A stretch of 46,845 nucleotides of DNA from Candidatus Moranbacteria bacterium CG_4_9_14_3_um_filter_44_28 (GTDB taxonomy: Bacteria; Patescibacteriota; Minisyncoccia; Moranbacterales; UBA11712), in the NCBI GenBank assembly GCA_002790655.1, contig PFVO01000043.1:1-46845 (forward strand). The letters run 5' to 3'. This document shows, one piece after another, positions 2,961 through 28,611 of the stretch (positions are counted from its first letter, which is position 1; every line of letters begins with the position of its first letter). Position numbers and translations under genes: made by a program. The notes under the pieces were generated by a model, which was not told where the DNA came from, searched no databases, and was given only the letters and a program-made list of their open reading frames with translations.

Positions 2961-2999
2961 GCCGCCTTAGCTCAGCTGGTAGAGCAGCACTTTCGCTTG
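2961..2999 (+). pseudogene. Truncated tRNA (acceptor 5', D-arm and partial anticodon arm)
   Basis: gccgccttagctcagctggtagagcagcactttcgcttg ends abruptly at a cccgcaccattt motif; no T-arm follows before the next tRNA. Confidence 0.6.
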
Positions 3000-3012
3000 T
3001 CCCGCACCATTT

Positions 3013-3084
3013 GCCGAGATAGCTCAATGGTAGAGCAATACTTTCGTAAAGTAGAGGTTATGGGTTCGAGTCCCATTCTCGGCT
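3013..3084 (+). tRNA. tRNA-Thr (anticodon CGT)
   Basis: Acceptor GCCGAGA/TCTCGGC, anticodon arm TACTT-TCGTA-AAGTA, T-loop GGTTCGAGTCCC. Confidence 0.88.
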
Positions 3085-3120
3085 CAAGTAAATGCTGGTA
3101 AATAACGTATAAGTTAAGAG

Positions 3121-11307: not shown

Positions 11308-12477
11308 TTAGTCTTGGGAAGCGTCATAGTAAATCTCCAGCGTTTCCCTTGCCATCTTTTCCCAGCTGTATTTCTTGATCTGTTCCTGTCCCGCGGCAAT
11401 CAGTTTTTTTCGCAGTTCGTTGTCAGTGGCAACTTTTTCAACTGCTTCAGCTATTTCACCCAAGGCATTCGGATCGAAATAACAAGCGGCATTCCCGAGA
11501 ACTTCCGGAAGGCAGGACGCGTTTGAGCTCACAACTGGGAGATTGCGGGCCATAGCTTCGAGCGGCGGCAATCCGAAACCTTCATAAAGCGACGGAAAGA
11601 CATAAAGCAATGCTTCGCGATAGACGGCTCCCAGATCTTCATCAGGAACAAAATCGGTAAAAGCAATTTGTTTCACCCAGTTATCCCTGACGAATTTTTT
11701 CAGCTTTTTGTAAAAATAATCCTCTTTCCCAACCAGAACTAGATGCAGGTGCGGGTGTTTTCTCGCGACCTCTCTGAACACCAAAACCAGCCTCTCTAGA
11801 TTTTTGTGAGGGTAGGCGTTTCCGACATACAAGATGTACGGTTTTATTATACCATATTTTTTCAAAATGTTCCTGGCTGTGTCTTTGGCGGGCGTACTGG
11901 CAATGTCCACGGCCTCATAAGTGACAAAAACTTTTTCTTCCGGAACATGAAAATGCTCGATAATATCTTTTTGGGTGTGTTTTGACACAGCGATTATTTT
12001 TTGAGCTTTTTGGATGGCGTTTTTGATAATTTTTTTATAAGCTGTTTTTTTGATGAAATACAGGAGTGGCGACAAAGTCGAAGCCCGTCGGGTTGGATAG
12101 TGAAAAAGGATGAGATCATGAATGGTGACGACAAATTTTCCTTTCCAGGAAATTGGAACATTGAAATGCGGGAAATGGACAAGGTCAAGGTTATGTTTTT
12201 TGAGAATTCCGGGAAGCTGCAACTGCTCCCGAATTCCGTACCAGGGAATATTAGCCAGCACCTTGGTAAAATTTTTGCCCGAGGGCTGATACTCTTCCCA
12301 ATTTTCCTTTCTTAAAAATATAAAATACTGATTTTCTTTGTCCCAGCCAGAGGCTGGTCCGCCTTGGGCGGAGATTTTTCCGAGATTTTCGATTAATTTT
12401 TGAGTATATCGCCCGAGGCCTTTTCCAATCGAGCCAAAAAACCGGGCGTCAATGCCGATTCTCATGAATTTCTTCAA
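11308..12477 (-). CDS. Glycosyltransferase family 4
   Basis: GIDARFFGSIGKGLGRYTQKLIENL; ILYVGNAYPHKNLERLV; PSLYEGFGLPPLEAMA. Confidence 0.9.
   Translation of the reverse strand: MKKFMRIGIDARFFGSIGKGLGRYTQKLIENLGKISAQGGPASGWDKENQYFIFLRKENWEEYQPSGKNFTKVLANIPWYGIREQLQLPGILKKHNLDLVHFPHFNVPISWKGKFVVTIHDLILFHYPTRRASTLSPLLYFIKKTAYKKIIKNAIQKAQKIIAVSKHTQKDIIEHFHVPEEKVFVTYEAVDIASTPAKDTARNILKKYGIIKPYILYVGNAYPHKNLERLVLVFREVARKHPHLHLVLVGKEDYFYKKLKKFVRDNWVKQIAFTDFVPDEDLGAVYREALLYVFPSLYEGFGLPPLEAMARNLPVVSSNASCLPEVLGNAACYFDPNALGEIAEAVEKVATDNELRKKLIAAGQEQIKKYSWEKMARETLEIYYDASQD
12343..12372. repeat. 30-bp double-hairpin insertion, in-frame in a GT4 gene
   Basis: CCAGCC-AGA-GGCTGG directly abutting TCCGCC-TTG-GGCGGA; encodes SAQGGPASGW on the minus strand. 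Confidence 0.8.
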
Positions 12478-13684
12478 TTATTTTTAGAGTGCTTGCAGCG
12501 CATTTTTTCCAATTGAATTTTTGAGCTTGCTTAAGTCCTTTTTCCTTGAGCTTGCTGCGCAATTTTTCGTCTGTGAGAATAGCCTCCATTGCCTCGGCAA
12601 TTTCGTCCGGCCGGTGAGGACTGACCAAAATAGCGGTGTTTCCGACGACTTCGGAAAGAGAAGAGTTGTTTGACGCAATGACTGGAGTTCCGCAAGCCAT
12701 TGCTTCGAGAACCGGAAGGCCGAAGCCTTCAAAATGCGAGGGATAAACGAAAAGCGAAGCGAGGTTGAAAATATAAGGCCGGTCCTCTCTTTTAATATAC
12801 CCGCAAATTGCGATATTCTCTTTTTTCTTATCCATTATATCACGGCAAAGCGGATTGATATTACCCGCCAGAACCAGTTTATATTTTTCAAGTTTGGGGT
12901 TGTTGCGCAGGAGATTTTTATAAGCCTTGATTACGGAAGTGATATTTTTGCGGGGTTCGATATTTCCCAAATAGAGAATGAATTTATAGGGAAGTTTGTA
13001 TTTTTTCTGTGCTTCCAATAATTTCGGATCATTTCGGTCGATTATTCTGAAGTCGCCGGACACCCCGTGATAAACGACTCCAATCTTTCCGGAATTGATT
13101 TTATAAATTTCTTTGAGATCTTTTTTGGTCGATTCAGAAACGGCGATGATCCGTTCTGATTTCTGGGCAATGCGCCGGGGATTTACGAAATAGTAATGCC
13201 AGAGGCAGGTCTTTCGCGTAAAAAATTCCGGAAAACGCTCAAAGGAAAGGTCGTGAAAAGTGGTAATTAACTCGCAGTTTTTACCCCGCACCAAATCATT
13301 GTTTTGGAATTTATTAGATAATTTTCTTATGCAGACGATATTGGGAGTGGATTTGGTGCGGGGTGAGCTCACTGCCAAGAAGTTTATATTAGGCGCAAAA
13401 AAAATATCCGTACCTTCAATCAGCCGATCCAGCTTTGGCCATCCGAAGTACCAGAGGAAAAAATTGAGAAGTTTGTTTGGCCAGCGTGATCTTTTTAGTT
13501 TGGCGTTGGGATATTTCTCAAAAAAATTAAAATTTCTGCTTTTTTGCTTGTATGAATTTGAAAATATGACGTACTCATTCTTTTCGTCAATTTCCAGCAA
13601 ATTGCGAACTAGCTCCAGCGCGTATTCCCCCACCCCGGATATTTTCTCTTCCTCGAGGCATCTCAAATCAATTCCAATTCGCAT
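12449..13684 (-). CDS. Glycosyltransferase family 4 with an in-frame palindromic element (ORF extends to 13759 but MRIGIDLRCLEEE at 13684 is the likely start)
   Basis: GIDLRCLEEEKISGVGEYALELVRNLL; ILYLGNIEPRKNI; PSHFEGFGLPVLEAMACGTPVIAS. Confidence 0.9.
   Translation of the reverse strand: MRIGIDLRCLEEEKISGVGEYALELVRNLLEIDEKNEYVIFSNSYKQKSRNFNFFEKYPNAKLKRSRWPNKLLNFFLWYFGWPKLDRLIEGTDIFFAPNINFLAVSSPRTKSTPNIVCIRKLSNKFQNNDLVRGKNCELITTFHDLSFERFPEFFTRKTCLWHYYFVNPRRIAQKSERIIAVSESTKKDLKEIYKINSGKIGVVYHGVSGDFRIIDRNDPKLLEAQKKYKLPYKFILYLGNIEPRKNITSVIKAYKNLLRNNPKLEKYKLVLAGNINPLCRDIMDKKKENIAICGYIKREDRPYIFNLASLFVYPSHFEGFGLPVLEAMACGTPVIASNNSSLSEVVGNTAILVSPHRPDEIAEAMEAILTDEKLRSKLKEKGLKQAQKFNWKKCAASTLKIIEEIHENRH
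13284..13363. repeat. 80-bp palindromic element, family PE1 (13-bp TIR), inside a GT4 gene
   Basis: CCCCGCACCAAAT ... ATTTGGTGCGGGG, perfect 13-bp TIR; coding strand encodes PRTKSTPNIVCIRKLSNKFQNNDLVRGK. Confidence 0.92.
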
Positions 13685-18913: not shown

Positions 18914-19058
18914 AATAAATTATGCTAATCTACGAATAGATGACAATCAACAAATTACGAATCAAAACATATTCGCATATTCGAAATTAGTAGATTAGAA
19001 TTTATTAGCAGATTAGCAAAATTTATTAGTCAAGGCCTATAAGCCGGATTCTGTCTTA

Positions 19059-19138
19059 TCCCTCACCACTTTTCGTGATTTTTCGTTAAGACTTTTTTCA
19101 AAAATCTCACGAATTTTATCAGCAAAAGTGGTGAGGGA
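19059..19138. repeat. 80-bp palindromic element (PE1 family) inside rnpB near the 3' end
   Basis: TCCCTCACCACTTTT ... AAAAGTGGTGAGGGA, with an inner CGTGATTTTT/AAAAATCTCACG inverted repeat. Confidence 0.9.
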
Positions 19139-19371
19139 CGAGATAATCATCTATCTAGGCCCGACGTTGCCGTCGGACTCAAGCGTCTTCCCCGCCGCTT
19201 ACAAGCGGCGGGACGCAGACTTGCACCAAGCAGGGTTTGCCAAGCTCCGGCCGTTGCCGTCCGGCTCCAATTGCAGCTTAATACCTCGCGCGAGCAAAAT
19301 ATCAAACACCAATCGGCTTTTCACCTTTTGCCGATTTTGTCTGCGCGAAGGCGCAGCAACAAAATCGAGCA

Positions 19372-19479
19372 CCCCGCACCAATCCTAACCACCTAATTTC
19401 ATACATCTATAGACGAAAGGCAGAGCCGCTTCGCTCTCGCGCTTGAATAAATAAGCAGATGATCGGAATTGGTGCGGGG
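19372..19479. repeat. 108-bp palindromic element (PE1 family) inside rnpB
   Basis: CCCCGCACCAAT ... ATTGGTGCGGGG, perfect 12-bp TIR. Confidence 0.9.
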
Positions 19480-19662
19480 TAGCTCCGTCAAACATGCGAG
19501 CATGTTTGATTGGCCCGTATAGTCTCTGCGGCACTTTCCCTAAATACATCTTTCAACGTACCCGATGGGTGTTACCCATTACTTGTGATATTGGTGTCCG
19601 GACTTTCCTCCTTGCCCCTCGCGAGGGGCAAGGCGATTATCCAGCTTTGACTAACTAGGTAT

Positions 19663-26988: not shown

Positions 26989-28611
26989 TTACAGTAAGCT
27001 TTTTAGCTTCATTTCTTTCAGTTTATCAATATTCATCGCATCGCACAATGTCGGTGCGATGTTGCCCAAGATTCCGCCGGATTTCAATCTTTTTCCCCGC
27101 AGTTTATTGACACAGGTTATAAACGGCACCGGATTTTTGGTATGAAAGGTCATTGGCAGCTTGGCTTTTTTATCCCACATACAATCGGCATTGCCGTGGT
27201 CAGCGGTGATAATCAAGCTCCCATTACGTTTGTTTATTTCTTTATACAGCTTTGCGAGGCACTTATCAACCGCTTCAACCGCTTTCACGGCCGCTTTTAT
27301 GTTCCCGGTATGACCGACCATATCGGCATTGGCGTAATTTACGGTTATGAAATCATATTTGCCGGCTTTTATAGATTTCAAAATCTGTTCGGTGATTTTT
27401 TCTGCCGACATTTCCGGTTTTTTGGCATAGCTGTCAATTACAGGAGAAGGAACCATAAGACGATCCTCCCCGGCAATCGGATCGGCGTAGCCGCCGTTCA
27501 AAAAGTACGTTACGTGAGCAAATTTTTCCGTCTCGGCGATATAAAACTGGCGAATGTCGCGAAAGGCAACCGGCAATGTCCCGTTTATCGGATGGCCGTA
27601 ATAGGCGGTATGAACGGGAAGGTCGGGACCAAAGTTGGTCATAGCGACGAAATACAGATTTTTGAGACGCGGCAAGAGCAGTTTTGTCTCATCCGAATCT
27701 TCCTGAACAAAAAGTTTTGAAAACTGGCGGGCCCGATCGGAACGGAGATTATAGAAAATTACGGCGTCGTTATCCTTGATAGATGCAATCGGTTCCCCGT
27801 TTCCCGTTATCACAGAGGGCTTGATGTATTCATCAGTGATTTCGTTTTTATAATTTTCCCGGACAGCATGTTCGGCGTTTTTAAATTTCCTGCCTTTGCC
27901 TTTGACCAGAAGCTCATAGGCAACTTTCAGGCGCTTCCAATTTTTGGCGCGATCCATGGCATAAAACCGGCCAACCAAAGTTGCGATTTTTCCGACTCCA
28001 ATGTCATAAATTCTCTCTTTCCAGTCCCGAATGTGATCAATCGCGCTTTTGGGATAAGAATCTCTTCCGTCGGTGAAAAAGTGAATATAAACATTTTTGA
28101 TTCCGTTTTTTTTGGCGAGAATTAATAGTGCTTCAAGATGATAAGGGCTCATATGAGGGCTGTCTTCGTTTCCCAGAAGTCCCATCAGGTGAAGATCTGA
28201 TTTGTTTTTCCTGACGTGAGAAATTGCTCCCAGAAATGCCGGATTGTGAAAAAAAGCGCCGGAGTTGATACTTTCCGAAATAACGCGCGAGTCCTGTTCG
28301 GCAATCCGGCCGGCGCCGATATTCATATGTCCGGTTTCCGATCCACTGGTTTGATTATTTTCGAGACCGACATCGGAACCGGTCGCTCCCAATTGAGTAA
28401 AGGGATATTTTTTCGAGAGATAGTCAAAGGCTGGCGTTTTGGCAAGCCAAATAGCGTTGGTTTTGTCTTTGAGCCCGATTCCCCAGCCGTCGAGGATGGC
28501 AAGAATTGTTGGTTTACCCCGCACCAAATTCCCGTGATTTCTTGTTTTTGGGATTATTTCGATTTTTTCCATTGTTTTGTGAGATTTGGTGCGGGGTTTA
28601 TTTGAGTTCAT
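26989..28611 (-). CDS. gpmI: 2,3-bisphosphoglycerate-independent phosphoglycerate mutase, with element-encoded N-terminal extension
   Basis: PTILAILDGWGIG; SDVGLENNQTSGSETGHMNIGAGRI; VNYANADMVGHTGN; LIITADHGNAD. Confidence 0.95.
   Translation of the reverse strand: MNSNKPRTKSHKTMEKIEIIPKTRNHGNLVRGKPTILAILDGWGIGLKDKTNAIWLAKTPAFDYLSKKYPFTQLGATGSDVGLENNQTSGSETGHMNIGAGRIAEQDSRVISESINSGAFFHNPAFLGAISHVRKNKSDLHLMGLLGNEDSPHMSPYHLEALLILAKKNGIKNVYIHFFTDGRDSYPKSAIDHIRDWKERIYDIGVGKIATLVGRFYAMDRAKNWKRLKVAYELLVKGKGRKFKNAEHAVRENYKNEITDEYIKPSVITGNGEPIASIKDNDAVIFYNLRSDRARQFSKLFVQEDSDETKLLLPRLKNLYFVAMTNFGPDLPVHTAYYGHPINGTLPVAFRDIRQFYIAETEKFAHVTYFLNGGYADPIAGEDRLMVPSPVIDSYAKKPEMSAEKITEQILKSIKAGKYDFITVNYANADMVGHTGNIKAAVKAVEAVDKCLAKLYKEINKRNGSLIITADHGNADCMWDKKAKLPMTFHTKNPVPFITCVNKLRGKRLKSGGILGNIAPTLCDAMNIDKLKEMKLKSLL
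28517..28596. repeat. 80-bp palindromic element (PE1 family) at the eno/gpmI junction, translated as GpmI N-terminus
   Basis: CCCCGCACCAAAT ... ATTTGGTGCGGGG perfect 13-bp TIR; coding strand encodes PRTKSHKTMEKIEIIPKTRNHGNLVRGK. Confidence 0.92.

Follow-up and report, generated by a model that had tools for sequence, protein, structure and literature searches.

What is an 80-bp palindrome doing, in frame, inside a glycosyltransferase gene of a Moranbacteria genome, and does it stand alone? The window, that is the whole stretch of DNA analysed here, is the 46,845 nucleotides of contig PFVO01000043.1 (Candidatus Moranbacteria bacterium CG_4_9_14_3_um_filter_44_28), and the locus comprises three features.

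13284-13363, no strand assigned: 80-bp palindromic element in the GT4 gene, with arms at 13284-13297 and 13350-13363 (14 bp, perfect) and a unique interior of 52 nt.
13280-13367, no strand assigned: the element with its feet TTTA (13280-13283) and TGAG (13364-13367), a net insertion of 84 nt as judged from the empty sites of orthologs.
12449-13684, minus strand: GT4 glycosyltransferase gene that hosts the element and is read through it (Pfam PF13439 and PF00534, and orthologs).

The first-pass annotation of this DNA had given the sequence and position of the palindrome correctly, with perfect terminal inverted repeats (TIRs) of 13 bp; the repeats are perfect and extend over 14 bp (CCCCGCACCAAATC and GATTTGGTGCGGGG, with the core CCCCGCACCAA). 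The folding energy of the 80-mer is -23.6 kcal/mol (z = -5.2, none of the shuffled sequences being equally good), and in the minus-strand coding sequence it encodes PRTKSTPNIVCIRKLSNKFQNNDLVRGK. The proposal that 28 residues had been inserted in frame is borne out by the orthologs of 16 relatives, which align to query residues 1-106/107 and from 134-137 onward on contiguous DNA (for example G007:C10, 19546-19863 and 18733-19542); since they skip exactly these residues, the insertion is confined to the source genome. The empty site in relative G001 reads GCA GTC TCC AAA AAT TGC and the source genome GCA GTG AGC TCA[80]T AAA AAC TGC. Because excision of the 80 bp and of four nucleotides, CTCA on the sense strand, restores VSKNC, the protein sequence of G001, 84 nt must have been added (80 + 4), and the frame is thereby preserved. 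Translation of the copy probably yields a loop of 28 residues, flanked by FAPNINFLAVS and KNCxLxTTFHDLSF; the AlphaFold model of the GT4 enzyme alone is uninformative (pLDDT 37), and none of the top PDB alignments spans the insertion.

With the 80-mer as query, BLAST detected the interior nowhere else in the source genome and gave a single weak match of 33 nt in 56 relatives, but the ends alone recur. The arm pattern, with at most one mismatch, has 30 matches in the source genome and the reversed-pattern control none. Most of these ends are paired in inverted orientation over 44-150 bp, around interiors that are unrelated, and make up about 20 paired copies within 0.79 Mb; the arms within one copy match each other (AAAT/ATTT, AAAA/TTTT, CCCCACACC/GGTGTGGGG). 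The second copy announced by the first-pass annotation concerns the following features.

28517-28596, no strand assigned: second copy, also of 80 bp, at the junction between eno and gpmI, with the duplication TTTA at 28513-28516 and 28597-28600.
26989-28611, minus strand: gpmI, its 5' end lengthened by the element copy, with an in-frame ATG within the element.

This copy is real and 80 bp long, but it does not lie inside the protein: it forms an N-terminal extension at the eno-gpmI junction. It is flanked by a perfect 4-bp duplication, TTTA/TTTA on the plus strand, and the ATG that it contains may be used as start. The site is empty in six relatives (G002, G003, G004, G005, G007 and G009); G001 has an orthologous copy, partly decayed, as judged from one wobble and mismatches in its arms. 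These same changes in the DNA rule out a compensatory arm change in G001. The picture of two loci has in any case to be widened, given the number of paired copies and the presence of others in RNase P RNA, 16S rRNA and tRNA genes and in several phyla. Within the window, the gene for RNase P RNA is interrupted twice, one interrupter belonging to a sister family with TCCCTCACCA ends.

19372-19479, no strand assigned: 108-bp copy in loop P12 of RNase P RNA, with CCCCGCACCAATY ends.
19059-19138, no strand assigned: 80-bp copy of the sister family, with TCCCTCACCACTTTT ends; it lies close to the 3' terminus of RNase P RNA.
19024-19652, minus strand: RNase P RNA gene (class A) containing both copies (Rfam RF00010, 169 bits, E = 1.3e-54).

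In P12, a mini-palindrome, CAAACATGCGAGCATGTTTG, adjoins the insertion at 19489-19508, as though this loop were a recurrent target.

The anatomy of the copies is one of conserved ends around free contents. Across 31 copies of 77-85 bp, information content is high over 13 positions and then falls to about zero (~0 bits past position 14); the copies share their ends only (core CCCCGCACCAA, arms of 13-20 bp), and the interior of about 54 nt has no common sequence. At positions 12-14, immediately beyond the searched core, the arms within a copy agree in 54, 54 and 46 of 66 cases, as against 29, 33 and 18 with shuffled partners, and this covariation exceeds that of all shuffles (500/500); the arms are therefore kept paired or copied from each other. 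The arms are read in all frames (PRTK.., PAP.., PHQ..; ..LVRG, ..GAG, ..WCG). Since every one of these frames occurs, no encoded peptide is conserved.

The four-nucleotide feet conform to YNNR in 162 of 232 cases, most commonly as TTCA, CTTG and TTTA; GTAG and CGTC are each seen at one foot among the 232. Among 70 copies located outside tRNA, RNase P and rRNA genes, a perfect 4-bp duplication flanks 10, where 1.4 would be expected (p<=0.0005); most copies are without a clean duplication. In the source lineage the net addition equals the element length plus 4 nt, and the copies in protein genes of Patescibacteria measure 44, 77, 80, 80 and 104 bp, all of them 2 mod 3, which is what an addition of +4 with selection on the reading frame should give; the host frame thus stays open. 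In-frame copies of Planctomycetota measure 80-82 bp. In MurD exactly 28 residues are inserted between positions 174 and 175 of PDB 3lk7, and because this copy consists of 81 bp with three more nucleotides, the +4 rule is not exact.

Element lengths appear to fall into classes of ~43-44, 63, 80-83 and 100-104 bp, in steps of ~19 nt (G057-G060, G066; L262-L271), the numbers being small and the interiors of the longer classes unrelated. The 44-bp class of Phycisphaerae (L262, L263, L264, L265, L267, L270, L271) has a conserved interior, CCCCGCACCAATTAGGCGTGAGCCTAAGCTCAATTGGTGCGGGG, that resembles a true REP-type unit. The same 104-bp in-frame insertion is found in an orthologous membrane protein of two families (L032, 1501-1604; L139, 995-1098), with arms kept and interior diverged; since both families retain it in this state, copies can be very old.

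The hosts are diverse. In-frame, stop-free copies occur in the genes for GT4, TopA, MurD, MnmE, URO-D, a DinG-like helicase, a ComF-like protein and others; in the source genome, topA is interrupted in frame by a 77-bp copy with CCCCTCACCA ends, and the ComF-like gene carries in frame a 44-bp copy with the duplication TTCA/TTCA. RNA hosts outside the window comprise RNase P RNA at four further loci, 16S rRNA at two, and tRNA genes. A general rule of insertion into hairpin loops was considered and rejected: it holds for tRNA and RNase P, and outside structured RNA genes the complementarity of the flanks is not significant (p = 0.06).

The tRNA hosts are illustrated in the window by a single locus.

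2961-3085, plus strand: 5' half of a tRNA (2961-2995), foot CTTG, a lone arm TCCCGCACCATTT (3000-3012) and a complete tRNA-Thr(CGT) (3013-3085).

This is the remnant of a nested tRNA cassette, and an example of outer tRNAs that are decayed or reduced to one half and one arm. A complete tRNA is enclosed by the arms in 27 cases, usually one of the same isotype as the interrupted tRNA. When the sequence outside the arms was ranked against the 27 inner tRNAs, its own inner tRNA came first in 10 cases and among the first four in 22, and the best match was for the same amino acid in 17 of the 27 (our own count from the ranking table). On G015:C1 (L034, 1501-1718) the nest has three levels, a tRNA in a tRNA in a tRNA, the two inner ones each held by an element. 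The intact tRNA genes of G015 cover all amino acids without the interrupted ones, and the interrupted outer tRNAs are therefore dispensable in that genome. We infer that the nests arise by capture of a cassette and then rescue of the interrupted gene, which fits the data. It is quite conceivable, if a little short of probable, that one family of palindromes moves among distant phyla with arbitrary DNA as its cargo, whole tRNA genes included, and that its tRNA-loaded form persists by inserting into a same-isotype tRNA gene and assuming the function of that gene; such a self-rescuing cassette would build tRNA-inside-tRNA nests. We also considered a permuted-tRNA reading of the arms, CCCCGCACCA resembling a tRNA 3' end and GCGGGGT a 5' start, and abandoned it, as there are no D and T arms in permuted order. 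In two genomes (L134, L152), outer tRNAs that are interrupted bear a second palindrome, ACCTGCCTGCCGGCAGGCA, in their D loop. Among the 39 tRNAs of the source genome (G000) there is no intact tRNA-Phe or tRNA-Glu, which may reflect a gap in the assembly or interrupted genes.

An exact scan for two arms 56-86 nt apart in a 257-Gb collection of ~85,000 genomes returned 66 loci, against 0.5-4 by chance (by our own arithmetic, ~0.5 at even composition and ~4 at 65% G+C). They belong to many Patescibacteria, to Planctomycetota (often with several per genome), Omnitrophota, Elusimicrobia, Zixibacteria, KSB1 and TA06, and to one Pyrodictium contig, whose match may be due to chance. The pattern at 78-108 bp is absent from 2.9 million viral contigs.

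We consider it very probable that these elements are non-autonomous selfish palindromes of a MITE- or REPIN-like kind, which work like the Rickettsia palindromic elements (RPEs) without being such. This is supported by the empty sites of orthologs, the ~20 paired copies, the 66 loci, the covariation of the arms, the 4-bp duplications and the insertions both in frame and in RNA genes. On the other side, no autonomous parent with these ends was found in Patescibacteria or Planctomycetota, clean duplications are wanting at most copies, copies with unrelated interiors are of near-constant length (80-83 bp), the nucleotides gained or lost at tRNA sites vary, and movement is something that we infer. 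It can be hypothesised that the ends are recognised by a transposase from another locus, which moves them in trans together with any DNA that they enclose. Gene-disrupting insertions would be lost, and those kept would lie in a loop of a protein or an RNA, or in a tRNA gene that regains its function through the cargo tRNA.

Other explanations must be weighed against the same observations. Loop insertions are common among GT4 enzymes, and the palindrome could in principle be a chance inverted repeat within an ordinary loop extension; the recurrence of its exact ends some 20 times in the genome and at the 66 loci outside, together with its folding score, refutes this and leaves the idea practically without credit. 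An intron-like behaviour, in which the elements are cut from RNA or bypassed by ribosomes so that host products are uninterrupted, would agree with arms that remain paired, with interrupted tRNAs and RNase P RNAs that otherwise bear ~80-150 extra nt, and with the intact acceptor and T stems of some outer tRNAs. It is nevertheless highly improbable: copies in protein genes are in frame and free of stops, which neither splicing nor bypass would demand, the inserts are much shorter than group I or II introns, and outer tRNAs decay or lose one half. A spliced tRNA intron also presupposes a cell that needs the interrupted tRNA, and G015, with its complete intact set, does not. The splicing of tRNA halves was rejected on the same two grounds, the G015 set and the state of the outer tRNAs.

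Paired and covarying arms, as well as the orthologous copies L014 and L054, which retain their arms while the interior diverges, would also be expected of a conserved structural or regulatory motif in RNA or DNA, selected site by site. Such a motif is hard to reconcile with unrelated hosts, with the use of both strands and all coding frames, and with orthologs that are empty at the same sites, and we hold it to be very unlikely indeed.

To return to the selfish palindromes, a possible refinement, towards which we are rather sceptical, is that an HUH (Y1) transposase of RAYT/TIRYT type moves the elements, which would then be REPINs or TIR repeats proper. Of 12 arm-bearing relatives, 11 have Y1_Tnp genes, as do 22 of 45 others (Fisher p = 0.009, kinship being ignored), and one such gene in Zixibacteria lies between 13-bp arms, CCCCGCACCAACA and TGTTGGTGCGGGG. 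The layout of the elements is REPIN-like (PMC3116915), and RAYT-like genes with flanking TIRs, like TIR repeat families, are already known (PMC3733652). Against this proposal, the RAYT genes of four Patescibacteria genomes are flanked by other palindromes, the feet are neither GTAG nor CGTC save for the single instances given above, the 4-bp duplication suggests a staggered cut of DDE type, and the Zixibacteria arms are present at that one locus only. Among the loci examined, no arm pairs lie 250-5000 bp apart except around this Zixibacteria gene. The Y1 transposase genes of G000, G001, G005 and G015 (L170-L187) are tightly flanked by palindromes of their own, such as CTACCCTAGAGCTGAGCTCTAGGGTAG, which differ from gene to gene.

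Rickettsia provides the best-known cases of in-frame selfish palindromes, and the same habit is encountered here, with unrelated ends, in the tiny genomes of Patescibacteria and in Planctomycetota, Omnitrophota and Elusimicrobia. With their exact empty sites, the insertions are natural experiments on the tolerance of essential proteins for 16-36 additional residues and of essential RNAs for ~100 nt. The elements also account for odd insertions in RNA genes of CPR bacteria that mislead annotation and primers, and the tRNA-in-tRNA nests, if formed as proposed, would represent a new route for the movement and replacement of tRNA genes. The open-access literature yielded nothing relevant on these ends or on tRNA-nested or CPR palindromes, and as far as could be found there the family is undescribed.

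Compared with known systems, the likeness to RPEs that the first-pass annotation had pointed out stands: small palindromes of unrelated sequence lie in frame and stop-free in unrelated protein genes, are absent from homologs and recur in the genome. RPEs measure ~150 bp, are classed in ten families by sequence and code for a peptide that is conserved (PMC10969869), and they have a CGTC end (PMC3733652). The elements described here differ in sharing their ends only, without similarity over the whole element, a conserved peptide or a CGTC end; they use all frames, have YNNR feet and reside in hosts that span phyla. With REPINs and REP dimers, they have in common two conserved inverted ends, a fairly constant spacer length and a hairpin; the GI REPIN 16-mers start 71 bp apart (PMC3116915), and spacers that differ in sequence but are equal in length are already known from REP dimers (PMC3733652). 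They are distinguished by the lack of a GTAG/CGTC tag, by many intragenic positions and by local RAYT genes with other palindromes. A RAYT gene flanked by the same repeat was found in Zixibacteria only, and in none of the four Patescibacteria genomes. Type II MITEs are small and non-coding, with similarity strictly within terminal inverted repeats and short direct target repeats (PMC10969869). The present elements are likewise non-coding and shorter than 500 bp, with similarity limited to the inverted ends, and their target duplication is in excess of expectation and missing from most copies, as in old MITEs; they depart from MITEs in arms that covary beyond the core, and in a cargo that can be a complete tRNA gene. 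No parent insertion sequence with these ends was found among the loci examined, apart from the Zixibacteria Y1_Tnp gene. The intervening sequences of rRNA resemble our elements in being insertions built on hairpins and placed in the loops of structured RNA genes, and the difference is that the ends described here are also found in protein and tRNA genes. The elements would therefore be filed among the small palindromic mobile elements.
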